From NCBI RefSeq assembly GCF_036711975.1, contig NC_091966.1, forward strand, positions 1,371,501 to 1,435,500: a stretch of 64,000 nt of DNA, in the 5' to 3' direction. The position numbers and the translations under genes are program-made. This stretch comes from Onthophagus taurus (taxonomy: Eukaryota; Arthropoda; Insecta; Coleoptera; Scarabaeidae). The notes under the pieces were generated by a model, which was not told where the DNA came from, ran no database searches, and was given only the letters and a program-made list of their open reading frames with translations. Below are positions 3,853-50,313 of the stretch, piece after piece. Every line of letters begins with the position of its first letter. Within the stretch, counting starts at the first letter, position 1.

Positions 3853-4412
3853 TGCGTGTTAATAATAGAGTTAATACATAAAAAATTGATTGGATTCGAT
3901 CCCGTTGAGAGCGGATGAAAATTTAAAGAGATCTTATTAAGATATATGTCAAAACCAGTACCCTGTAGACGTGTTCAAATTTTATCAAATGTTCGATATA
4001 CTGCGACATGAAGTTAGATACTTTATTAATTTATATTCAAATGTGTACGCGGGCTTTAATTTCTTTTAAAAATTAAAACCAATTTTAAGTTAATAATTTT
4101 ATTAAATTATTTCGTTTTATTTTAATTATTTTATCACAAAAAAATAAATTTAAATTAACACATCCCAAGTCATTCTCTAAAAATCTATGATCGTCATTAA
4201 ACAACTAACTTCATAATGTTCAAAAGTAATTAGTGTTTCACTTCAAATAAGCGGTTTTTTAACTAAACTTGGTCCACTTCAACGAAAATTATTATTCAAA
4301 ACGAAGAAATATGAAGAGTTTTACGCGATAAAGTGCCGCATAACCCACGAATGCCAAAAGAAAAGACACATTGACAGTTGAGGTTAGGTTCGTTTTTCAA
4401 GTATAATGTGAT
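3853..4412. promoter_or_regulatory. Bidirectional promoter region, ArfGAP1 / EMC1
   Basis: The two start codons face away from each other across 560 bp, so both promoters must lie here or overlap. There is no clear TATA box near either start. EMC1 translation begins in the context GTGATATGGCAAAAATGG. The sequence is AT-rich and shows no transposon. Confidence 0.5.
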
Positions 4413-7079
4413 ATGGCAAAAATGGCTATAATTGAGTCGATCGCGCGTGTTTTGGTGATATTAATCGCTATTTCAAAAATAACCGTATCGTTATACGAAG
4501 ACCAAATAGATAAATTCGATTGGAAACAGTCATATGTAGGAAAAATTAAATTTGCACACTTTGACTCTGTTAAGCGAATAATTGTTGGTACCGAAGAAAA
4601 CGTGATAGCCGCTTTAAATTTGAAGAATGGACAAATATTTTGGAGGAACGTCTTAGAGGATACTAATCAAATAGAGTTTTTGCACGTTGATAAAGAGGTT
4701 ATAAGTGTGTCTGGAAATCAAAATACTTATTATGTGCGAGGGTGGGATTTAAATAGTGGGGTGTTATTGTGGGAGTGGGTTTTGCACCCTGAAAAAGATA
4801 ATGGAAGGTGGTTTATACATGGGAGAAATTTAATTCATGTTGTTGCGGTATTAAATTCTCACGTGGAAGTTAGCGAATATGATGTACAAAGTGGTAAAAA
4901 TAAGGGGGTTAGTTCGCGGTTATCGACGCCGTGGATTAATGATTTAAAAAGGTGTGGTTTAGCGGAAACTTATTTTGTTTGTTTATCATCGGATGATAGT
5001 AATGGGCAAATTTATTATATCGATTTAACACCGGGGGAGGAGGCACATGTTATTTCAAAACCTCTCACTAATTTAATTGGAAATGCTCCAGGAAAAGTTA
5101 CAATTAAAGAGTTTAAATACACCGAACCGGCTATATTATTAATAAGAAATAATGTTGCTCGTTTAGTAATTTTAAAACAATCCGATACGGTTGTATTACC
5201 CAATTCTTTCTCGCCAGACGCGATTATTATTAATAATAACGATCAAATACAATTTATGGATTTAAGTACAAATGATGATTCGTCTAATTTACGAATAAAA
5301 ACGATGGAACTCGCGGGGCAAGATAATGTTATAGATGTTGAATATTTAAATAGTTTAGGAAAACCGAAAGCTTTAACGGGTATTTGTCGCGGAAACGCGT
5401 GTCGTATGCTATTTACAACAACAACGGACGTAGTGGGGTTATTACAATTACCCACGGGGAAAATTTTATGGACGAGGGAAGAATCGTTGAGTAAAATTTC
5501 CGGGGTTGAATTCGTCGAATTACCGGTTTCCGATTTAGACGCATCCATCGAGAAAGAATTTACCCCATCAAACGATGTTATAGCAATGCTTTACAACCGC
5601 CTCCTCAGCCAAACGAGGCAACTATCATCATTATTATCAGGCCAACAATTAAAATCAAACAAATTAATACGTGACGAATTCGGTTTGCATAAATTAATTA
5701 TCATTGCGACGAACGTTGGGAAATTATTTGCGTTGGATAGTTTATCTGGGGAAATTATTTGGAGTGTAACTCTTCCAGATATTGAACCATTTAAAATTTT
5801 TGATAAAGAAAGTATAATACTGTTAGAACAAAGAAATGCGAGATATGCCCCATTAACCGCCGAATATATACTTGTTGCTCGAAATATTAAAACGGGTAAA
5901 GGGGTGTTGTACAATTTTGATCCAATCACGGGAGAACCAAAAGATGGTTTGAAATATTTAGATTATAAAATAAAACAAATTATGCTATTACCCTACGAAG
6001 ATGAATCACATTTAAAAGGATTATTAATTTTAAGCGACGAAGACAAACCTTATTTATACCCGGAAAATATGCAACAAATTTTGTATCAAACTCATTTATC
6101 TTCAACTTATATGTACACCATAAACAGTATAACCGGCATTTTAAACGGATTTAATTTCGTACATAGCACAAAAATGAATTTGAAAGCAACACCTACGTGG
6201 AAACTCACGTTTAAACCGTCAGAAATTGTCGCGGTCAGTGTAAGACCTGCAATTGAAAGGGTGCATTCCCAAGGAAGAGTATTAGCTGATAGATCAGTTT
6301 TATATAAATACGTAAATCCAAATTTAATCGCTTTAGCAACTTTAACAGAAGATCCAATACACAAACACGTTTTAAGCGTGTATTTAATTGATGGTGTAAC
6401 GGGATTAATCATTTATTCGATTAATCATAAACGAGCTAAAGAGCCGATTCATTTGGTTCATTCGGAAAATTGGGTGGTTTATTCTTACTTTAACGAAAAA
6501 TTCCGCCGCATGGAAATGGGTTCTTTAGAGCTTTACGAAGGTGCAAGACAAAGTAACAGTACAGCTTTTAGTTCTCACGCTTTGAGTCAACTCCCGCACG
6601 TCGAAACTTTATCTTGCATTCTTCCGGCTTATCCTTTAGCTATGGTTGCAACATTAACCGAGCGCGGAATAACAAATAAACATTTACTCATCGCTTTAGC
6701 AAACGGGGGTGTAAACGAGATGCCTTGGATGTTCTTAGAACCAAGGGGACAGCACATTCTTTCGAGTCCTGATGAAGGTTCGGTGCCGTACATGCCCGAA
6801 TTACCTCTAGTCACAGAAGCAACGATAAATTATAACCAAAGTTTAGCACGGATTAAGGGAATTAACGTTTCGCCGGCTCGTTTAGAAAGCACAACGTTGG
6901 TGTTTGTGCACGGATTGGATTTGTTCTATACGCGGGTGATGCCGTCGAAAACGTTCGATATGCTCAAAGAGGATTTCGATCATTGGCTGATTGTTATGGT
7001 GTTGGTTGGGTTAATCGTTTCATCGTACGTTACGAAACAGTTGGCGTTAAGAAAAGCTCTACGACAAGCCTGGAAGTAA
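4413..7079 (+). CDS. EMC1: ER membrane protein complex subunit 1
   Basis: Largest subunit of the EMC, which inserts tail-anchored and multipass proteins into the ER membrane; most of it forms lumenal beta-propellers. The 888-residue frame is uninterrupted. Residues 1 to about 27 form a signal peptide (hydrophobic VLVILIAISKITVS). The propeller follows, with PQQ-like repeats such as LKNGQIFWRNVLED, LNSGVLLWEWVL, LPTGKILWTREE and SLSGEIIWSVTLPD. The DUF1620 C-terminal domain contains TLSCILPAYPLAMVATLTERG. One membrane segment (about 857-877, HWLIVMVLVGLIVSSYV) precedes a short basic cytosolic tail ending LRKALRQAWK. The length matches insect orthologues (about 900; human about 990). The single-exon structure is unusual beside its intron-rich neighbours, but the frame is intact, so it looks functional rather than a retrocopy. 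Confidence 0.97.
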   Translation: MAKMAIIESIARVLVILIAISKITVSLYEDQIDKFDWKQSYVGKIKFAHFDSVKRIIVGTEENVIAALNLKNGQIFWRNVLEDTNQIEFLHVDKEVISVSGNQNTYYVRGWDLNSGVLLWEWVLHPEKDNGRWFIHGRNLIHVVAVLNSHVEVSEYDVQSGKNKGVSSRLSTPWINDLKRCGLAETYFVCLSSDDSNGQIYYIDLTPGEEAHVISKPLTNLIGNAPGKVTIKEFKYTEPAILLIRNNVARLVILKQSDTVVLPNSFSPDAIIINNNDQIQFMDLSTNDDSSNLRIKTMELAGQDNVIDVEYLNSLGKPKALTGICRGNACRMLFTTTTDVVGLLQLPTGKILWTREESLSKISGVEFVELPVSDLDASIEKEFTPSNDVIAMLYNRLLSQTRQLSSLLSGQQLKSNKLIRDEFGLHKLIIIATNVGKLFALDSLSGEIIWSVTLPDIEPFKIFDKESIILLEQRNARYAPLTAEYILVARNIKTGKGVLYNFDPITGEPKDGLKYLDYKIKQIMLLPYEDESHLKGLLILSDEDKPYLYPENMQQILYQTHLSSTYMYTINSITGILNGFNFVHSTKMNLKATPTWKLTFKPSEIVAVSVRPAIERVHSQGRVLADRSVLYKYVNPNLIALATLTEDPIHKHVLSVYLIDGVTGLIIYSINHKRAKEPIHLVHSENWVVYSYFNEKFRRMEMGSLELYEGARQSNSTAFSSHALSQLPHVETLSCILPAYPLAMVATLTERGITNKHLLIALANGGVNEMPWMFLEPRGQHILSSPDEGSVPYMPELPLVTEATINYNQSLARIKGINVSPARLESTTLVFVHGLDLFYTRVMPSKTFDMLKEDFDHWLIVMVLVGLIVSSYVTKQLALRKALRQAWK

Positions 7080-8535: not shown

Positions 8536-10262
8536 CAGAGGCGGCGCTACCAGGGGGTGCACTGCACCCGGGCGCCGCTTAAAAGGGGGCGCCGGCGCCT
8601 TTTTAATGTTTTCTCCAACAATATCTTATCTTTCTTTTGCAGTATTTAGACCTGTCAGCAGTAGTTAGCCTTCAAAAAGCAGTATTTAGTCTCCACAAAG
8701 CAATTTTAGTCTTTAGAAAGCAGTATTTAGTGTTCCAGACGCTGTATTTAGACCTGTCGGCAGTATCTAGTCTTCAGAAAGCAGTATTTAGTTTTCTAGA
8801 AGCAGTATCTACTCTTCTGCCAAAGTTATGTATGTTTTCTCCAACAATATCTTATCTTTCCTTTGCAGTATTTAGACCTGTCAGCAGTATCTAATCTTCA
8901 GAAAGCAGTATTTAGTCTCCACAAAGCAATTTTAGTCTTTAGAAAGCAGTATTTAGTGTTCCAGACGCTGTATTTAGACCTGTCGGCAGTATCTAGTCTT
9001 CAGAAAGAAGTATTTAGTTTTCTAGAAGCAGTATCTAGTCTTCTGTCAAAGTTATGTATGTTTTCTCCAAAATATTTTAACTTTCTTTTGCAGTATTTAG
9101 ACCTGTCAGCAGTAGCTAGTCTTCAGAAAGCAGTATTTAGTCTCCACAAAACAATTTTAGTCTTTAGAAGGCAGTATTTAGTGTTCCAGACGCTGTATTT
9201 AGACCTGTCGGCAGTATCTAGTCATCAGAAAGCAGTATTTAGTCTTCTAGAAGCAGTATTTAGTCTCCACAAAGCAATTTTAGTCTTTAGAAAGCAGTAT
9301 TTAGTGTTCCAGACGCTGTATTTAGACCTGTCGGCAGTATCTAGTCTTCAGAAAGCAGTATTTAGTCTTCTAGAAGCAGTATCTAGTCTTCTGCCAAAGT
9401 TATGTATGTTTTCTCCAACAATATCTTATCTTTCTTTTGCAGTATTTAGACCTGGCAGCAGTATCTAATCTTCAGAAAGCAGTATTTAGTCTCCACAAAG
9501 CAATTTTAGTCTTTAGAAAGCAGTATTTAGTGTTCCAGACGCTGTATTTAGACCTGTCGGCAGTATCTAGTCTTCAGAAAGCAGTATTTAGTTTTCTAGA
9601 AGCAGTATCTAGTCTTCTGCCAACGTTATGTATGTTTTCTCCAACAATATCTTATCTTTCTTTTGCAGTATTTAGACCTGGCAGCAGTATCTAATCTTCA
9701 GAAAGCAGTATTTAGTCTCCACAAAGCAATTTTAGTCTTTAGAAAGCAGTATTTAGTGTTCCAGACGCTGTATTTAGACCTGGCGGCAGTATCTAGTCTT
9801 CAGAAAGCAGTATTTAATCTTCCAGAGCAGTATCTAGTCTTCAGAAAGCAGTATTTAGTTTTTTAGAAGCAGTATCTAGTCTTCTGCCAACGTTATGTAT
9901 GTTTTGTTCTTGATACTGACAGCAACTTTTTTCTGGGTGTCTATCATCATCTTTTTGGGAGCCTCTTATTATCTATACGGATCTTGTACCACCTGGTACC
10001 TCATTTCTGCAGCTGTTAGTTTGCTTTTGTGCTTATCCTGCATTGGCAAAGTTTCAGTATTGGTGATTTCCTGTCCTGTGCAATAACAAGACAAGTCCAT
10101 TAGTTTCTTGTTCATATTCTTCGTATTCTTTTATTGAACACATAACTATTGCCATAAAAAATCATGTTTCGTTTATAATCAATTTTTTGTTTTCTCTGCT
10201 TGGTGAGGGGGCGCCACTCCGGTTCCCGTACCCTGGCGCTTCATTTGCTAGCGCCGGCACTG
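8536..10262. mobile_element. hAT-like non-autonomous element with GC-rich ends and a tandem-repeat core
   Basis: The ends are imperfect inverted repeats: CAGAGGCGGCGCTACC at the left, and CAGTGCCGGCGCTAGC read inward from the right. They are strikingly GC-rich for this locus (GGGCGCC blocks at 8567-8602 and 10208-10260). Flanking octamers AGTGAAAC (8528-8535) and GGTGAAAC (10263-10270) differ at one base, matching an 8-bp hAT-type target duplication, and the flanking repeat continues seamlessly across it. No transposase is present. The interior is a tandem array followed by a short hydrophobic frame (9895-10086) that I do not recognise. Confidence 0.75.
8637..9890 (+). repeat. 226-bp tandem array inside the hAT-like element
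   Basis: Units start at the CAGTATTTAGACCTGKCAGC word near 8640, 8866, 9091, 9440 and 9666, a 226-bp spacing except for one unit enlarged by an internal duplication of about 122 bp. Each unit is built from shorter 25-35-bp elements around AAAGCAGTATTTAGT. Long open frames run through the array only because the units have few stops; the period is not a multiple of three. Confidence 0.85.
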
Positions 10263-40600: not shown

Positions 40601-43600
40601 AACATCGAAATGGGACCTGCATATGACTCGCAAGAATCTCAATTAAATGTAATTACCGGAAATTGTGGGGAAACTTTAGCTCATTTTAATATGTAAGTAT
40701 ATTTATGTCGACAATTATGATAGATATCGTTATCAAATTTCACCGTGCAGTCCAATGCTCTTAACATTAATACCTTGCTCGGCGAAAGGTCATTCAGATC
40801 CCTTGAGGAGATAAACTGCGACCCAAAAATCGAGAATCTGATACGGTTAACAGCAGGGCAGCGGCATAAAACATGGTCAACCGTCTCTGCTTCCTCCGCA
40901 CATAGTCGGCATTCAACATCGTCGGCTAAACCCAACAAGTTGAGGTGTGCTTTTAATCGGCAGTGCCCAATAAAAACACCCATTAGAACTTTTATGCTAC
41001 TACGGGCAAGTCCTAAAATATTCCCGGGTTTGGCAGTGGCGATGTTAATAAACAGCTTAGCATGTCTCATTCCAGGAGAACTGGTCCACAGTAGGCGAAG
41101 TCTCTCTTCAGCCCACAGTCCAATCCTATATTTGGCCATCGCAAATGATACACCAACTGCTGGTTCCGGCCCCACAAGCTTCAGCGCTGCTATCTCGTGC
41201 TAGCTTATCTGCCGCTTCATTGCCAGCAACCCCAGAGTGACCCGGAACCCAGATCAGAGAGACTCTGTTATCACAACTCAGTGTGTTTAATGTTCTCTTA
41301 CAATCATTAACCAGAGCCGACACCGTTTTCACGGCTTGCAGCGCCTGGAGAGCGGCTTGACTGTCTGAGAAAATTCGTACTGTCATGTTCTTCACCCCTC
41401 TTTCAAGAAGGATTTTAGCACCCATGTTAATAGCAAATACTTCCGCCTGGAATACAGTACAGTACGTACCCAGGCTGTAAGCTTGCTTAATTCGAGGTGT
41501 CTGGCAGTATACTCCTACCCCTTCAGGCGTTTTTGATCCATCTGTGTACAAGCAAATGTCTGCCTGAATCAGAGAATTTTCATTTTCGATCCAGGACTGC
41601 CGCTCAGGCAGTACAATCTGGTATCGAGCATTAATCACTGATAGTGATACCGCCAAATCTGACGGCATTGATAGCACAGTATCAGTGCTTATAATGTCTT
41701 CCGCAGCCCATTGGTAAGACATGTCGGAACAGTTTTGAGCATATTGCTTAAATCTGTAAATGGTTGCTCTAGCCACTTTCTCTATATGCAAATGCAGAGG
41801 AGATAGGCCAAGCAGAACTTCCATTGCTAGAGTTGGCGTTGTGCCTATCGCACCAGAGATTGCCACTCCAGCTACTCGTTGAAGTCGTGAAAGTTTACTG
41901 ATAACTGAAGTCTGTCGGACTTTCCTATACCAGGCTGCTGCTCCGTATGTGATCATAGGTCTAACCACAGTGACATAGAGCCAGTACAGTCTTTCAGGGG
42001 TAAGACCCCAATTTTTTCCACAAAGACTGCGACAAGTCCACAAGGATAGTCTAGCTTTGTGCAAAACTCCCTGCAAATGTCCATTCCATGACAGGGTTTT
42101 GTCTAGGATTACTCCTAGATATTTGACTTCCTTTGAGAAAGGAATTTCTTCACCTTGGATAGTTGGGCGGATTAGTCCATCCAACTTTCGTTTCCTGGTG
42201 AAGGGCACAACAATTGTCTTTTGCGGGTTTATTGAGTGGTTCTCTCCCTTCCACCAAGCGCAAATGGTATCTAGGGTCACCTGGAGGACTTTAGATATCC
42301 TCGGCAAACAGGTTCCTTTGACCATAACGACAATGTCATCAGCATAAGCTTGTATTTCCACACCAACGGCTTCGACTATCGCAATCAGATCGTCAACTAG
42401 GAGGGACCAAAGCAGGGGAGATAACACCCCTCCCTGCGGGCAGCCACCTCCCGGTCTGAAGCGTATCGTATCACCGTGGAGTGAAGTAGAAACTATTCTA
42501 CTATCTAGCATATTGCGGATCCAACCCGCTATAGTTGCTTCCACTCCCCTGTCAAGAGCAGCTCTTTCAAGAGATTGTGGTATTGCGTTGTTGAACGCTC
42601 CCTCTATATCCAGAAACGCACAAACCAAGATTTCTTTATCCTGCAGCGTCCTGGATACTCTACCAACTACGTTGTGTAGAGCCAATTCTGCCGATTTTCC
42701 CGCTTGATAAGCATACCAATGGCACCGTACGAATATACCGTTCCAGAACTTTTTCAAGGGTTTTCAACAGAAATGACGTTAGGCTGATGGGTCGAAAGGC
42801 ATTAGAAGTAGGGACCGAAATTATGATATAAGTGGAGAGTGAAAAATAAAAATTTTAATCATTACTGACTACCATCAGCTGTGCCTTTTCAGGTTGTACG
42901 TGGAGTAATAATGTTATTTATCATATTTGGTGTAAACCTCGGAATATTTTCATGAATCCACTTTTCTATTAAGATGACCAAAAACCTTAAAAAATCTCAA
43001 GAATGCGAATTATGAGAACAAATTGGAGTCATAAAGGTGATAACTTCGCGAAGTTAAGGAAGACAAAAGATTTTAAAGAACATTAAACCGTTAATTCGGG
43101 CACAGAAGATAGAAACTGCAATACCAGTTTTTTCTAGAAATTATCCGTGAAGCGCCCTATAATAGGTTGACTATACAGAATGTCCCGTATCATCCGCATC
43201 AGAGCATTATACGGTTGTAGGATACATTATTCTGAAGCGATCTTTCTAATAAAATGTTTATAATAACCGCACGGGAACTGTTTAAAGTTTACAACCGTAT
43301 AATGCTCTGATGCGGATGAAGATACGGGACACCTGTATATGATAATTTGCTTGTGTCAAAGATATTTTGCTTCTGTAAAATAAGACTTATTCCCGCTGAT
43401 ACTTTGAACTCTTTGTGAAACCACGCATCAGTTCATTTTATTCGTGATAATTTTCTTTTAGTTATGCAAATTTCTTTGTGCTCATGACATTTCTTTGAGC
43501 GTTTGGATGCCTTTGAGAGGAATTGATGCATCAAAAGGACCAAGAGCGGACTGTATTCTTGCCATCATAATTAGAAGTTGTTGTGAGTCACTTTCTTTTC

Positions 43601-46600
43601 CTTTAACTGTTATATATAACCGGCCGATTCAATCTGGAGCTGTTCTACGTGTTTGGAATAGGGTCATGTAATCAGCACGCTTTTTTTGCTCGATCGAGAG
43701 CAACTTGTTGCAATACACCCAACTATATTTTAAACTCTATGGATGATTCCTTTCAAGTTGACTCCATTTATACCGATTTTAGTAAGGCTTTCGGTCGAGT
43801 CGATCATGTTCTGCTTCTTTCAAAACTTCGTATGTTTGATATTGACGAACATCTTGTGCGTTGCCTTCTATACACGTGGAAGGATAATAAAATTAGTAAT
43901 AATGATATATGAAGGTGAATATCAATAGTCACTTCAGCATGATTGTTACCTCCGGTGTACCGCAAGTACACTTAGGACCTCTTCTATTTAACATTTATAT
44001 CAATGATATTTTTTCAATAATTAAACACTCATTTGCTTGATGTATGCTGATGATTTAAAAATTTTTACTCGACTTTCTTCACCTTTGGATTACTTGAGGC
44101 TGCAACGGTGACATTGATGCGCTACGTATTTATTGCAGATCAAATTTTTACATCAGATATTCTGCGTACAAGTTTAATATTTTTCTTTCATCCATCTATC
44201 GATAACGAGTTGTTGATCAACAAAACAATTTCAAATCAATACAACTTCAGAATTTGAGGAAATTAATAATTATTGACTTATTTCGTCACCTTGGAAAGAA
44301 CTTTCAAAGCAGTTCGGGGATCACTGTATCTTAGGGGTTTAAGTATTAGGTAAGATAGATATATGGCTTTCATCCAAAAAGCACTGTTATCTAGCAATAT
44401 TTGTAGTCTATATGCCAGCTCCACTGCAAAGAACCTAATCAATTTTTTATATAGGAGACCACAACCATCTTAACTTTTCCTCCAGTTATCTGATACGGTT
44501 CGTTTCCTCATTTTTCCAACTTATTAAGTGTTTTTGTAGGTCGTACTTATTACAACAGCGAAATGATTTTTCTTTAATACAAAGCTATGTCATATATCAT
44601 TATTACTAATTTTATTATCCATCCTTCTCCTCCTCTGGTTTCAATCCGATCCGATGCAGTTTTCAAATAAGTTCTTCCTCTCTTAAAGAAAACTACAATG
44701 GTTCCATCTTAAGAGAACTTGACGCTATTTCTATCCCTATCTCATTTACTAATAATGGCTCTTTGATCTTGATGATGTAGCGAAGATTCTACTCAGAGTT
44801 CATTTTGTCTTAGCCCATCAATTACAGAATGCAGGGATTTCATTAGAATTTGATTATATTTCTAATTTTCACCTAATGACAAATTAACAATACATTTCAG
44901 TATAGTTTCTATCCAAAATACAGGGTGATTCACATAAGAACCGACACAGAGAGAGACAATAAATTAAGATGATATAACGCAACTTATCTCTATACTAAGT
45001 TGTAGCTCTGAATTATAGACCTTCAAAGTTGGGTCTTAAATTTTTAAAACATTGAATATCTTCGTAATACCTTAAGCTAAAAAAACAAATTTGGTATTGT
45101 GCATATTTTTGAGAACTAGTAACGTTTTCTTTTTCTAAATGTGGAAAGTGAGACACATTATTCTGCAAAAGATGCTGTTTCCACAATTTTAATTTGCGCT
45201 CAAAGCCCTGAATTTTATCATATAAATTGTGAATAAACTGTCCTTTGCCTTGAAGTTCCACATTAAGATCATTGAGATGCTGAGTCACGTCGATAAGAAA
45301 CCCAAAATCGCACTGTTCATATCCAAGAACAATTGTATTTCGCTTTTTAAGTTGTATATTCTTTTTAACATTGCGCCGCTACTAAGCCAACGTATTCAGC
45401 CATATTCAGTTTCTAAATCTTTCAGGAATTATAAGTACGAAGGCTTTCACGGCCGGTGTGAATTAAAGTAAAATTAGAACTAACACTAGAAACTTTCGGG
45501 TTTTGCCGTGCGTCTTTTAATAAAAGGTTTGACGTTTCGGATGCCATGTTGCAACCTTCTTCAGAAACTGGTTCGAAGTGACGAGATCAAAAATCGGTAA
45601 CTATATATAAGTCGGAAAAACTAATTAATAATCAGTTAACGTTAATTACAAGCTAATTAATAACTAATTGCGTCGCGTCCGGTGTGAGGCGGGAAGAGGT
45701 CTTCGTGTTCACCACCATCTTCCATGTTCTGCTAAGCTTCCAGCCATCCTCTCCATTAATGTTATTTTTATGTCGGTGGATCTCTATGGCTTCTCTTGTC
45801 AGTCTTTGGTAGTATCTGTTGTCCCTAGCCAGCACCTTTGTTTGTTCGAAGTCTATTCGGTGGCCCTCTGCATGGCAATGTTCCGCAACCGCCGACTGCT
45901 GGATCTTCTTCAGCCTTACATCCCTCTCATGCTCCTTGATGCGGCACTCGACGTCGCGTCCAGTTTGGCCAACATAAACCTTCCCACAACTACACGAAAG
46001 TCGATAGACCCCCGCTCCTTTTAATGGAGTTAGTTTGTCCTTGGCTATCGGGAGTGTGTTCCGAATTTTGCTGACCGTGCCGTACCGCACTACGATGTCG
46101 TTCTTCTTGAGGTGCCTAGCAATTCGTTCCGTTACACCTGAAACGTAGTGAAGACAGATAAATCCAAGTGGTTTTGTACTTACCGTGTCCTCTTTCTGCT
46201 TTCGCTACTTGATGGCCTGGTTGATGTCCCTCGAAGTGTATCCATTCTTCTGCAGCACGCCTCGTAGAAAGTGTTGCTCCTTCTTCAAGTTCTCTCCTTC
46301 ACATAGTCTCGCTGCTCGCTGAAATAATGTACGGATCACGGACCTCTTCTGTTGGGGATGATGATGTGAACATGCCTGTAAATACCTGTTGGTATGGGTC
46401 TTCTTTCGGTATACACCAAGTTCTATATCTCCATTTGTCGTCCTGGTGACCAATACATCTAGGAAAGGTAGTTTTTTGGCAGTTTCTGTTTCCATGGTGA
46501 ACTTAATCATAGGATGTTGAGAGTTCAAGTGATCCAAGAACTCTTGGAGCCGTTTTTGACCATGTTGCCATATCACAAACGTGTCATCCACATATCGTAG

Positions 46601-49494
46601 CCATAGTTTTGGTTTCCACTGGCTCTTCTTCAAAGCGTCCTCTTCGAATAATTCCATGTAGAAATTAGCTATAACTGGCGATAGTGGAGATCCCATGGCT
46701 GCCCCTTCGAACTGCTCGTAAAATTCTCCTTTCCAGCTAAAATACGTCGACGATAAGCAATACTCCACCAGATTTGGCACGTATTCTGGTAAACCCTCCG
46801 GAATGAGTTTTCGGCGAAGACCCTCTACAGCATCCTTAACTGGTACCCTAGTAAAAAGGGATTCCACATCGAAACTTACCAACATATCCCCAGCCTCCAG
46901 CTTTACACCTTTTACCGATTCCACAAAATGTGTAGAATCCCTAACATACGATTCCGTGTTACCTGTAAAGGGAGACAGAATCTTTGCAAGATGTTTGGCC
47001 AGCTGGTATGTTGGGGAGTTGATGGCGCTGACGATAGGGCGGAGGGGTACGTCTGGTTTGTGAATCTTCGGCGCCTGCACAAACAAACCTTTCTGCTGTT
47101 CTGCTGGAATTCCAGTGGATTTTATCAGTTTCTTCATTTTCCTTACGATTTTGTCTGTGGGGTCCTTCTTTATCTTCCTGTAGGTGGCTGGGTCCAGTAG
47201 GTTCATCATTTTGTCGTCGTATTCTTTCCTGTCCATAACAACGGTGGCATTCCCCTTGTCTGTTGGTAACACGACGATTTCTGATTTTTCTTTTATAGAT
47301 CGGAGTGCCTTCTTTTCACCAACCATCAAGTTGGATTTTGGTGGTTTTGCTAACTTCAATACTCTCGCAACTTCTTGTCGGAGCACAGAGGTTTCGTCTT
47401 TCGTTAGTGGGACATTCGATCTGTTAATGACGATTGTTTCTACTGGTAAACTTACTTTTCTTCTTTTGCGACCGGCGTTCCAGAGATTCAAACTTCTTGA
47501 TGTGTGTGTCACGGGTCTTCTGACATTCGCGATTAGTCTTCTCCATTGTTAGTCTGTCCACTTTGTCCCAGTCTTCTCCGGATATACAATTGGAAAGTGA
47601 GAGGTGGAGTCGTAGTAACTTCTCACTTATTTTTTGTAGATCATTGAAGGTCTTGTGGATTCTTTCTCGTAGCAGTGCTTGTTCTGTCCTAATCAAAATT
47701 CTACGTGCTGCAGCGGAGTCGATGTGGTGCTTCACCTTCAAGAAGGTTGGCGTTACTTTCTTCTCTCTGCATCTTCGTAGAAAGGCCAAACTGCTCAACA
47801 GCTTGCGTTGCAACGTTTCAACGCTGCAACGCAATTGCAGCGTTGTAATTAGCGTTAACTGATTATTAATTAGTTTTTCCGACTTATATATAGTTACCGA
47901 TTTTTGATCTCGTCACTTCGAACCAGTTTCTGAAGAAGGTTGCAACATGGCATCCGAAACGTCAAACCTTTTATTAAAAGACGCACGGCAAAACCCGAAA
48001 GTTTCTAGTTTTAGTTCTAATTTTAGTTTCTTTCAGGAATTCTTAAAATTTTCAAAACACATAAATTTTCCTGGTGAATTATGCGGTGGTTAACGAATAT
48101 TTCCCTTCCTGTGACCTTCTTAATGTCTTGAAATAGCCTTCCCGATACTTCTACCTCCATGCTTGACATTGCTCGTGCTCCATCTGTCGATATACCAATA
48201 ATCTTTTCTAATAAAATTGAAAAATTTTCCAACAGAGTCTAGTTCATCGTACAGGTCTTGGTCGGTTGTAGTTTCTTTCATTGGAATCAGTGAGCACAAT
48301 TCTTCGGTAATATTAAATTTGGTGTCAATACCACGTCAAAATATAGCCAGTTGAGCTGTATCGCTAATATCGCAACTCTCATCAAGTGCCAAAGAACAGT
48401 ATTCGAATTTTGCAATGCGTTCACGAAGCGTTGTTGCTATGTTCTCGGACAAGTCTTCAATTCTCCTTGCAATAGTGAATCTTGATAAACTAATGTTTGA
48501 AATAATATTTATTTTGTCAGTCAAACATTCTTTAATCATCTCTCCATCCGCAAAGGGTTTCATTTTTTTTGCCAGTATTTGACTGACAACAAAACTAGCC
48601 TTCACTGCCGTATTTGATAAAATAGCAATAAGTTTTTCTCCATTTGATTAAACTTATCTATCCGAAGTTGTCCTGTTAAGTTTTTATATTGTTGTTCATG
48701 TTTTGTGTCGTAATGCCTTTTTATGTTATATTTCTTTAATGTCGACACAGTCTCTGAGCATATTAAGCATACAGCATCTTAGACGAAACTAAAAACTTTC
48801 TTGAAAATGCCTGTGCTCATCCGCAACCTTTCGTTTTTTTGTTTGCTTTTCCGACATGCTATTATGGATTAAAAATTTGGAACTAACAAAAATTTGTAGG
48901 AAAACTTAATTTTGAATAAAAAAACTCTAATACTACCTTTTTGACTATAATATTGCACTCACGCCTTTCAAGAAACACAAGAATTGCTAAAATTGCTAGT
49001 TAAAAGCATACCAGTCTGACTGATTGTGTGACACGTCACAAAAAATTGTTTAGGTTTAGTATGTACTACCGCGTGTTGCTCATCCCTGTTGTAAACCAAT
49101 ACAAAACTTCCCCAATACTTTCTAAAAAGTAGTTTCATACTTTTTATTGTAGGTATTTACGATTACCCGTTCAGGAAATAGATACAGGAAGGATAATAGA
49201 TACCAGTATTTGCCGAATGGCCGTTTATAAAAACCGAAAAGAACCAAAATCACTTCAAGATGTATTAGAATTTTTAGGTGAAACTAACAAAGATAATGAG
49301 GTGTATCAAAACTGCGAAGTACGAACAGTTGCAACAGGTAAATACATTTACAAATTTAATTTACATTTTTTTTTTAATTTAATTTCGTTATTGTAGGTAT
49401 TTTTGATTGCATTGCAAATACATGGACTTTGTATGCTGATAACCCAAAAACGAGTGAACCACTCGTCGTTTTACCTCTGATCTTAAAATCATAA
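28602..49494 (+). CDS. tan: Tan, N-beta-alanyl-dopamine / carcinine hydrolase
   Basis: Self-processing Ntn-type amide hydrolase (peptidase C45 family) that regenerates dopamine or histamine from beta-alanyl conjugates, acting in cuticle pigmentation and photoreceptor transmitter recycling. Exons: 28602-28685, 38698-38889, 38941-39054, 39736-39970, 40455-40692, 49153-49337, 49397-49494. They join to 1146 nt, 381 residues (Drosophila about 387), with all phases consistent. Landmarks: CIPIIYTRGTHYEVGFDI then GTTFGSMIHDLLEKC, GIADGAKVPFYKLFLLHMDD, SGCSTICVN, YAGHLPGYTMGYNHHGLIFT, KTPRYFITRALLA, and TWTLYADNP near the end. Gly119-Cys120 is the expected autocleavage site and Cys120 the nucleophile. 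Introns 1 (10.0 kb) and 5 (8.5 kb) are hugely enlarged by tandem repeats and transposons; the coding exons are intact. Confidence 0.94.
28686..29830. other. Tan intron 1, 5' part without identified repeats
   Basis: AT-rich intron sequence before the tandem array. No genes, transposon termini or tandem structure were recognised. Regulatory elements could lie here but none is visible by eye. Confidence 0.4.
29880..38620. repeat. 143/287-bp tandem satellite array in tan intron 1
   Basis: About 8.7 kb built from a monomer of about 143 bp with landmarks GAATTTTCTTTTTGTATTTG, TTGCTATAGATGG, GAAATTTGCAAAAA and CAGAAAAACATG. In parts the monomers form a near-identical 287-bp dimer (unit starts 31826, 32113, 32400, 32687, 32974; also around 34514, 36337, 37748, 38035 and 38324). 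Elsewhere more diverged monomers alternate, and larger blocks recur: the GTGCCCCTTATC variant appears at 33364, 35191 and 36727. Open frames of 96-106 codons recur on both strands only because the dimer is stop-poor. The array ends 78 bp before tan exon 2. Confidence 0.95.
39055..39735. other. Tan intron 3, nothing recognised
   Basis: AT-rich intron between splice donor GTAAGT (39055) and acceptor TAG (39733-39735). No element was identified. Confidence 0.4.
39971..40454. other. Tan intron 4, nothing recognised
   Basis: AT-rich intron with donor GTAAGT at 39971 and acceptor TTTTAG ending at 40454. A minus-strand frame at 40027-40380 has no recognisable domain and is discounted. Confidence 0.4.
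40723..42818 (-). mobile_element. 5'-truncated LINE with reverse transcriptase and RNase H (I/LOA/R1-like group)
   Basis: Flanked by the 10-bp duplication AATTATGATA (40713-40722 and 42819-42828). The minus-strand main frame (41126-42757) has FLDIEGAFNNAIPQSLERAA, GCPQGGVLSPLLWSLLVDDL, the catalytic AYADDIVVMV, and a full RNase H domain from ICLYTDGSKTPEGVGVY through FSDSQAALQAL to WVPGHSGVAGNEAADKLARD. A -1/+1 frameshift near 41130-41175 leads to the C-terminal zinc-knuckle region CRLCAEEAETVDHVLCRCP. Upstream of 42757 another frameshift precedes FRPISLTSFLLKTLEK, and then the copy is truncated. It is inserted only 20 bp inside tan intron 5, next to the splice donor. Confidence 0.88.
42829..43175. 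other. Tan intron 5 segment without identified element
   Basis: About 350 bp between the LINE and the MITE; no coding or repeat structure was recognised. Confidence 0.35.
43176..43335. mobile_element. 160-bp Tc1/mariner-type MITE
   Basis: TA flanks at 43174-43175 and 43336-43337. The terminal inverted repeats of about 45 bp start CAGAATGTCCCGTATC and, inward from the right, CAGGTGTCCCGTATC. Both continue ATCCGCATCAGAGCATTATA then CGGTTGTA. No coding capacity. Confidence 0.85.
43640..44900 (+). pseudogene. Degenerate non-LTR retrotransposon reverse transcriptase
   Basis: Plus-strand fragments with stops between them: VDSIYTDFSKAFGRVDHVLL (43770-43820), TSGVPQVHLGPLLFNIYIND (43950-44010), YADDLKIFTRL (about 44043-44075), and later short pieces resembling the conserved C-terminal region. 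The order of RT motifs is correct, but the frame is heavily broken. It is a Jockey-like relic, older than the neighbouring LINE. Confidence 0.7.
45431..48028 (-). mobile_element. Penelope-like retroelement with inverted terminal repeats
   Basis: The 13-mer TCTTTCAGGAATT flanks it (45418-45430 and 48029-48041). Terminal repeats of about 185 bp, 45464-45651 and 47843-48028, are near-identical and inverted relative to each other. Each contains TAATAAAAGGTTTGACGTTT or its complement. The minus-strand protein is an N-terminal region (47834-47424), a reverse transcriptase (47512-46205) with SFDVESLFTRVPV, AMGSPLSPVIANFYMELFEE and catalytic LRYVDDTFVIW, and a GIY-YIG endonuclease (to 45653) with GVYRLSCSCGKVYVGQTGR. 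One frameshift near 47440-47460 and one in-frame TAG at 46205 are the only breaks, so it is fairly young. Confidence 0.92.
47930..47963 (+). ncRNA. Hammerhead-ribozyme-like motif in the Penelope terminal repeat
   Basis: Order of boxes: CTGAAGA, a short stem (GG-TGC with loop, GCA-CC), then CGAAAC and GTC. The sequence before the first box (GTTT) can pair with AAAC after GTC, forming a short stem I. This is the hammerhead arrangement with an almost absent stem III, as described for Penelope-like elements. One box differs from the canonical CTGATGA (A for T), so catalysis is doubtful. The mirror copy in the other terminal repeat lies on the minus strand near 45530-45563. Confidence 0.4.
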
Positions 49495-49534: not shown

Positions 49535-49575
49535 TTTATTTGTATTTAATGTATCAAGTATATGCAAGCAATAAA
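49535..49575. terminator. Overlapping polyadenylation signals of tan (+) and selenoprotein K (-)
   Basis: AATAAA on the plus strand at 49570-49575, 76 bp after the tan stop. AATAAA on the minus strand at 49540-49535, about 105 bp past the SECIS-like structure of selenoprotein K. If both are used, the two convergent transcripts overlap by tens of bases. Confidence 0.5.
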
Positions 49576-49645
49576 TGTAATTAGAATTCAAATTTTGAAT
49601 TATACAAAACAAAACCTTCAACTTTACATAAAATTAAGTAAAAAT

Positions 49646-49749
49646 CCTAATCATGATTAAATAAACACTCAACCTCGGTTAATCCCCTCCTGTTTACCAG
49701 GTTTATGAGAAAAACGTCATTCATTTGAGGTAAATAATCATAGATTAGG
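49646..49749 (-). promoter_or_regulatory. Candidate SECIS element (type II) of selenoprotein K
   Basis: Read on the minus strand, the outer ends pair as CCTAATC(T)ATGATTA with TAATCATGATTAGG (14 bp, one bulge), then CTCAA with TTGAG. Next comes an internal loop with the ATGA quartet (49720-49717) opposite a GA in CCGAGG (49678-49673). An interrupted, GU-containing helix II follows (GTT/AAC, TTTCTC/GAGGGG). The unpaired AAA (49704-49702) lies 12 nt after the quartet, topped by a small CTG/CAG hairpin. This spacing and the extra apical stem match form 2 SECIS elements. It starts about 105 nt after the UGA, within the normal range. Helix II is the weak part. Confidence 0.7.
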
Positions 49750-49817
49750 ACCATGTTTGTTCAATATAAATTTCAATTAAATCAAATTAATTAAAATTTA
49801 TATCAAACAAAAAAATT

Positions 49818-49841
49818 CTCTTAGGTTGTTAAACCTAAGAG
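49818..49841 (-). promoter_or_regulatory. Perfect hairpin just downstream of the selenocysteine UGA
   Basis: CTCTTAGGTT and AACCTAAGAG form a 10-bp perfect stem with a 4-nt loop (minus strand TAAC). It begins 11 nt after the UGA codon and 2 nt after the TAA stop. Position and strength resemble a selenocysteine redefinition element, though it could be fortuitous. Confidence 0.5.
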
Positions 49842-49843
49842 GT

Positions 49844-50313
49844 TTAGCGTGCTCATCCACCTCCAGGCATGGAACAATCTTGGATTGTGGTTATGCGCCC
49901 TATCGTACGAGGTCCTCTAGGACTAAAAAAAAATTTAATCATATTTGTAAATAAACATTTTTAATTTAATTACCCTCTCCCTCCACCGGGATAATCGGGA
50001 CCTCCTCCCCCTCTTGAACCACCACGCGAACCATTTGATGATGACGAAGAAGTATCAAAACCAAATAAAGTTTTAAAGCTAATTTAAAAGTTGAATTATA
50101 AATCTCGAATATCAAACGTATTTAAATAACTTACAAGAAAATCACAAATGCGATTATACCCCAAAAAAATTCGGGGATTCTCCTTAAACTCCATGGTCTT
50201 CCTTCAGCGACTCTACCACCTAATAATTTAAAAATACGATAAAGGAAACAAATTTGAGGTTATGTTTGATGGATTTTCTTAAGTATTGAATAATTACCTT
50301 GTACGTATACCAT
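49844..50313 (-). CDS. SELENOK: Selenoprotein K with in-frame UGA (Sec) near the C-terminus
   Basis: Single-pass ER membrane protein of ER-associated degradation and calcium-linked palmitoylation. Exons: 50298-50313, 50135-50219, 49974-50078, 49844-49922, joining to 285 nt. The product is 94 residues with UGA at codon 92; human SELENOK is also 94 with Sec at 92. Landmarks: MVYVQGGRVAEGRPWSLRRI, membrane segment EFFWGIIAFVIFFFKTLFGF (residues 22-41), a Ser/Gly/Arg/Pro-rich cytosolic tail (SRGGSRGGGGPDYPGGGRG), the conserved IGRI, and the end PGGG-U-AR followed by TAA. A non-Sec reading would end at GGG. A SECIS-like structure follows. A Cys at residue 85 is extra. Convergent with tan, divergent from the ionotropic receptor gene. 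Confidence 0.92.

Follow-up and report, generated by a model that had tools for sequence, protein, structure and literature searches.

SelK of the beetle Onthophagus taurus is very probably a true selenoprotein gene, with a SECIS-like element and a candidate redefinition hairpin

Introduction

Insects have lost selenocysteine (Sec) repeatedly, and for a long time beetles were regarded as one of the groups without it. A tRNA-Sec is present in 46% of 200 insect genomes (PMC12923644); one copy is given for Oryctes rhinoceros (PMC9172067) and none for Monochamus alternatus (PMC10864374). The closest described case to the locus studied here comes from the same species and the same gene. In Onthophagus taurus, a dung beetle of the scarab group, a Sec-containing SelK and a Sec-containing SPS2 were reported together with good SECIS elements and a complete Sec machinery (PMC5330540, Secmarker), and the Sec-SelK of this species has thus been known since 2017. 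The initial annotation of our DNA, which was made from the sequence letters, considered Sec unexpected if the species was a beetle. It is a beetle, and the surprise was real, but the case had already been published. The text of PMC5330540 on the Sec machinery does not mention the hairpin and the make-up of SecS that we describe below. In the open-licence literature, this was the sole relevant paper for O. taurus and selenoproteins, and also the sole match for Nicrophorus; we found nothing there on a SelK hairpin or on a wider occurrence of Sec-SelK in beetles.

Two other systems are relevant because they carry an RNA structure close behind the Sec codon. Human SelS, which has been placed in one family with SelK, contains a stem-loop (SL1) 9 nt downstream of the UGA, with its start three nt inside the 3'UTR; when SL1 was removed, the signal that depends on Sec fell greatly in vitro (PMC3628699). 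In SelN, as told in the same paper, the Sec redefinition element (SRE) is part of the coding sequence and follows the UGA at a distance of 6 nt.

Here, we analyse the SelK locus in a stretch of 64,000 nt of O. taurus DNA (hereafter the window), located on contig C1 of a genome of 290.8 Mb in 33 contigs that was searched as a whole. Positions without a contig name refer to the window.

Results

The SelK gene lies on the minus strand (49844-50313). Its four exons, separated by GT..AG introns, join to 285 nt or 95 codons:

50298..50313, minus strand: exon 1 (ATG GTA TAC GTA CAA G), placed by the reading frame and a GT donor
50135..50219, minus strand: exon 2, with AG acceptor and GTAAGT donor; a hydrophobic, presumed membrane segment lies within
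49974..50078, minus strand: exon 3, Gly/Ser-rich region
49844..49922, minus strand: exon 4, with the 3' end GGG-UGA-GCA-CGC-TAA
49853..49855, minus strand: in-frame UGA at codon 92, the putative Sec codon; the record for the O. taurus protein ends with the residue upstream of this codon

The translation starts with MVYVQGGRV and ends with DCSMPGGG, stop, AR, stop, i.e. MVYVQGGRVAEGRPWSLRRIPEFFWGIIAFVIFFFKTLFGFDTSSSSSNGSRGGSRGGGGPDYPGGGRGPRGPRTIGRITTIQDCSMPGGG-UGA-AR-TAA. The UGA is codon 92 of 94 and follows a Gly run near the C-terminus, while the TAA at 49846-49844 (minus strand) is codon 95, which yields a product of 94 residues. When the TGA residue was treated as Cys, this product matched the Pfam family SelK_SelG (PF10961) with 80.2 bits (cut-off 23.3), in an alignment that spans residues 2-90 and the entire profile (1-86/86). 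The four-exon model of the initial annotation, with its 94 codons, UGA at 92 and TAA at 95, is confirmed by the joined exons and by this match. Beyond the whole-length match, the product shares with the SelK/SelG family the GG-U-x-R end, the Gly-rich middle and the single hydrophobic segment. Human SELENOK has the same codon layout (UGA 92, TAA 95). Its U is followed by G-R, where O. taurus has A-R; otherwise nothing of note differs.

A profile search of the O. taurus genome with PF10961, in which 4 candidates were scored, gave no match, as was the case in the control genomes, and missed the known SelK gene too; a spliced Cys paralogue may likewise have been missed.

The public record 'selenoprotein K-like [Onthophagus taurus]' (P0001) is 91 aa long and has 100% identity over 97% of the query, and its final residue is the one directly before the UGA. 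Such a record is what would be seen if the UGA were a plain stop, so that SelK would be a protein of 91 residues without Sec and the structure in its 3'UTR a relic. Yet, annotation often drops Sec, which is absent, for instance, in 22 of 36 SelS records (PMC3628699).

The 3'UTR contains the following features:

49668..49729, minus strand: SECIS-like core (ATGA, AAA, apical mini-stem, GA), from an Rfam alignment and a custom scan
49640..49760, minus strand: SECIS-like element including a long outer helix, from a minimum-energy fold (z -3.16)
49535..49540, minus strand: AATAAA downstream of the SECIS-like element, a possible polyadenylation signal (motif only)

Eukaryotic SECIS elements are marked by ATGA / AA / GA and by the length of helix II, landmarks that are also visible in the Rfam alignment. 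The SelK element agrees with this plan, and its helix II has the usual length. Its ATGA (49720-49717) is followed after 12 nt by AAA, a mini-stem CCTG/CAGG and GA (49676-49675), and a long helix flanks the whole. When 49640-49760 was folded freely, an outer helix, AUGA opposite GA, an inner helix, an unpaired AAA and an apical mini-stem were obtained, at -32.4 kcal/mol; only 1 of 200 shuffles folded as well. The foldable ATGA/AAA/GA element with mini-stem and flanking helices that had been noticed from the letters is thereby borne out. Its distance was originally given as 105-130 nt downstream; the ATGA is located 123 nt past the TAA and 132 nt past the UGA.

A SECIS call had been named as a check on the initial annotation. 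The Rfam model SECIS_1 aligned over its full length (1-64/64) and on the right strand, but with 17.6 bits it remained under its gathering score, which is 35. The E value of 2.4 over 4227 families corresponds to about 6e-4 for one family in 821 nt. At the gathering score, the Rfam search of the 64,000-nt window gave no SECIS. The genome-wide search with SECIS_1 at E up to 10, in which 150 of 5914 first-look candidates were scored, returned nothing and missed the elements of both SelK and SPS2. The sub-threshold score might be taken to favour a plain stop. However, because SECIS_1 misses the SPS2 element as well, the model appears insensitive here, and the weak score is no strong counter-argument. 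A custom scan of the window, run on either strand, required ATGA, a spacer of 9-13 nt, AA and GA, as well as pairing of both helices. Among 267 ATGA cores, two reached the score of the SelK element, namely SelK itself and a core at 41220, inside a retroelement ORF.

Most of the Sec machinery was found in the genome. The best match to the tRNA-Sec model (C7:6278620-6278705) scored 75.7 bits against a cut-off of 47 and has the anticodon TCA according to ARAGORN. The other nine of the ten genome matches were weaker; two of these, one at 47.1 bits, were run through ARAGORN and proved to be tRNA-Ser. Since the model also gave matches in every one of the 14 control genomes, 5 of them with a score over the cut-off, the call of tRNA-Sec depends on how high the best match scores and on its anticodon. 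In the 64,000-nt window, ARAGORN found no tRNA.

SPS2 (C8:959446-960255 plus an upstream exon) has an in-frame UGA at the catalytic position (FSDLRG-UGA-GCKVP). Its 3'UTR shows a SECIS-like fold of the same plan as the SelK element, with a stronger inner and a weaker outer helix, to which SECIS_1 gave no match. SPS1 is a separate gene on C7, with Arg at the site of the UGA in SPS2 (FADLKGRGCKVP). The elongation factor eEFSec was located at C1:31685835-31686149 and in neighbouring ORFs; the best PDB match of the first ORF is eEFSec (163.3 bits), and the second contains both eEFSec-specific Pfam domains. SecS (C3:25682106-25684100) scored 375.9 bits against a cut-off of 224.85. For an ORF at C6:18275478, the two PSTK models of NCBIfam were the best matches, at 102.9 and 96.1 bits, far under their cut-offs of 290.5 and 382.35, and we call it PSTK-like.

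SBP2 was not detected in the genome with the L7Ae domain (PF01248) and a human SBP2 domain as queries, both of them weak searches that score exon by exon. PF01248 gave 7 matches in 6 genes, none of which reads as SBP2. One candidate was rejected as it is of the GADD45 type by PDB comparison; the others we take to be ribosomal proteins and NHP2/SNU13-type proteins. The unmatched SBP2 fits a plain stop, but an exon-wise search for a divergent protein shows little when it fails. The retention of tRNA-Sec, SPS2 with its UGA, eEFSec and SecS in the same genome argues against that reading. The initial annotation held that this species retains Sec decoding, and most of the machinery genes sought support it: four were present, PSTK was represented by an ORF under the cut-offs, and SBP2 alone went undetected.

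A second structure lies between the stop codon and the SECIS-like element:

49818..49841, minus strand: perfect 10-bp hairpin with a 4-nt loop, candidate Sec redefinition element (z -4.22)

The hairpin begins 11 nt past the UGA and 2 nt past the TAA, and none of 200 shuffles folded as well. Its pattern occurs at one place in the O. taurus genome, even with up to 3 mismatches allowed, and an origin from a repeat was rejected on this ground. Perfect stems of at least 10 bp with loops of 3-8 nt were found at eight separate places in the window, this hairpin included (11 matches when overlaps are counted), or about one per 8 kb. A pattern search for SelK relatives with DNA matched 25 stretches in viral contigs and 7 in prokaryote contigs, none of which encodes a relative.

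SecS has an unusual make-up and looks duplicated within the gene. A frame of 484 residues is open at L017:526-1977 (minus strand), within L017:117-1977, which corresponds to the coordinates on C3 given above. It matches the PDB chain 4zdl_A out of order. Residues 5-93 correspond to 43-131 and residues 206-257 to 282-333, after which residues 276-321 correspond to 12-57 (a weak match of 5.2 bits) and residues 331-482 to 118-269. The next exon continues at 252-356 of 3bc8_A, including the STDKN site. The two halves within the frame are similar in sequence (28% over 72 residues, E 6e-5). The first half has kept the segment HGIGRSGDLNESQPKAPGSSLL (HGIGRSGD..QPKAPGSS) and has KDNN in place of the DKN of the enzyme, whereas the second half has kept DKN and lacks the stretch that matches about 58-117.

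Several other features were observed in the window and the genome. The retroelement ORF around the core at 41220 extends over 41126-42760 (minus strand) and encodes domains of reverse transcriptase and RNase H. At 45653-47545 (minus strand), some 2 kb away from the 3'UTR of SelK, a reverse transcriptase ORF is followed by a frame without a Pfam match that we take to be of GIY-YIG type, presumably in an arrangement as in Penelope-like elements. A single long open frame at 4407-7079 (plus strand, 890 aa) encodes EMC1, subunit 1 of the ER membrane complex, and an open frame of repeated units at 8800-9468 (plus strand, LYLDLSAVSSLQKAVFS...) is most probably an array of repeats and not a gene. Elsewhere in the genome, a full-length COI that is open under the invertebrate mitochondrial code (L014, G000:C1:21446788-21448128) sits inside a 44-Mb contig, next to frames that we take to be COII- and ND2-like; it is either a copy in the nuclear genome or a join made during assembly.

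Discussion

Our results point with near certainty to SelK (SelG) of O. taurus as a true selenoprotein gene in which UGA-92 would be read as Sec. This reading is well supported by the gene model, the SECIS-like element, tRNA-Sec, SPS2 with its UGA, eEFSec, SecS, the PSTK-like ORF and the earlier report (PMC5330540). The ribosome would receive, by way of the SECIS in the 3'UTR, an SBP2-type protein together with eEFSec and Sec-tRNA(Sec). The codon UGA-92 would then be decoded as Sec, two more residues would be added and translation would terminate at TAA-95. Like SelK of other organisms, the product would be a small membrane protein of the ER with Sec near its C-terminal end.

The C-terminal ends of other SelK proteins are relevant to the status of the UGA. 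Our profile search, in which only the 7989 candidates that share most words were scored, gave 76 SelK proteins, nine of them with beetle names, and the ends were examined in 40 of the 77 SelK proteins found overall. The records that do not stop at the Sec site have kept a Cys-bearing end. This is seen in the chrysomelids Gonioctena and Leptinotarsa (two of the nine beetle records, ending GGCAGGSCGM), in the fly Hermetia and in all ten plant records examined. This retention of a Cys end, together with the machinery kept in the genome, speaks against a plain stop, and we consider a 91-residue SelK without Sec very improbable in O. taurus.

In the other seven named beetle records (Onthophagus, Popillia, Trypoxylus, Ignelater, Aquatica, Photinus and Nicrophorus), the last residues are MPGGG, and the protein ends right where Sec would follow. 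The simplest reading is that all seven genes have a UGA-Sec codon, for which the basis is DNA in O. taurus alone and protein records in the others. This wider hold of Sec-SelK in beetles may be new, although modestly so. The SelK of Nicrophorus vespilloides (P0007) stops exactly at the Sec site, and the sole selenoprotein named for this species in PMC5330540 is SPS2. Another protein, P0008, is a scarab-like SelK (66% to Trypoxylus) that has no stop at the Sec site and finishes in GCGCSG, possibly a Sec-to-Cys conversion or a paralogue.

Fireflies and click beetles belong to Elateriformia. The records of Ignelater (P0003), Aquatica (P0006) and Photinus (P0009) stop at the Sec site and are likely unrecognised selenoproteins, judging from the predicted proteins. 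Sec loss was inferred in the Agrilus branch of Elateriformia (PMC5330540). If true, Sec-SelK in fireflies and click beetles would refine that picture.

The position of the hairpin behind the UGA seems strikingly similar to that of SL1 in human SelS, even though such stems occur about once per 8 kb. Both are stem-loops close behind a Sec UGA, at 11 versus 9 nt, and both start shortly into the 3'UTR, at 2 versus three nt. The hairpin differs from SL1 in that it sits in another gene, SelK, and is known from sequence alone. It also differs from the SRE of SelN, which is coding, in that it follows the TAA.

A strong hairpin at this distance might alternatively help a near-cognate tRNA to read the UGA, i.e. 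readthrough without Sec, as proposed for the UGA of insect SPS1 in Hymenoptera (PMC4561486). Yet, a SECIS-like element and the Sec machinery are present, the SPS1 of O. taurus has Arg instead of UGA, and the hairpin in a similar position in SelS promotes Sec insertion (PMC3628699). We consider this explanation exceedingly improbable, more so than a plain stop. The hairpin behind the UGA may be a modest novelty. A broader proposal, which we offer tentatively and with some doubt, is that the hairpin is an SRE of beetle SelK and the counterpart of SL1 in the related SelS, such that recoding in this reduced selenoproteome would rely on two RNA elements, the hairpin nearby and the SECIS further on, and that fireflies, click beetles and burying beetles have also retained Sec-SelK, which would make Sec loss in beetles later and patchier than in the picture of 2017.

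In SecS, the active site is formed where a loop and a lysine from different chains meet, and it is the lysine of DKN that binds the cofactor. The O. taurus frame might thus be one chain of two halves with complementary losses, the first with the substrate-loop segment but not the DKN lysine and the second with the lysine but not that segment, which would place an active site of the dimer interface in a single polypeptide. Because the frame is open, a pseudogene or an erroneous join seems less likely, and we give a real and functional protein of this kind about an even chance. Although it lies outside the window, this make-up may be new, and is more curious than the by-products of the window. 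If it is real, nature itself would here have dissected an active site made by two chains.

SelK and SPS2 are the two published selenoproteins of O. taurus. Since SPS2 serves the Sec apparatus itself, SelK is the sole known reason for keeping this apparatus and a suitable case for asking why Sec is retained or lost. The cut-off public record of SelK, apparently matched in several other beetles, conceals the Sec trait from routine surveys.
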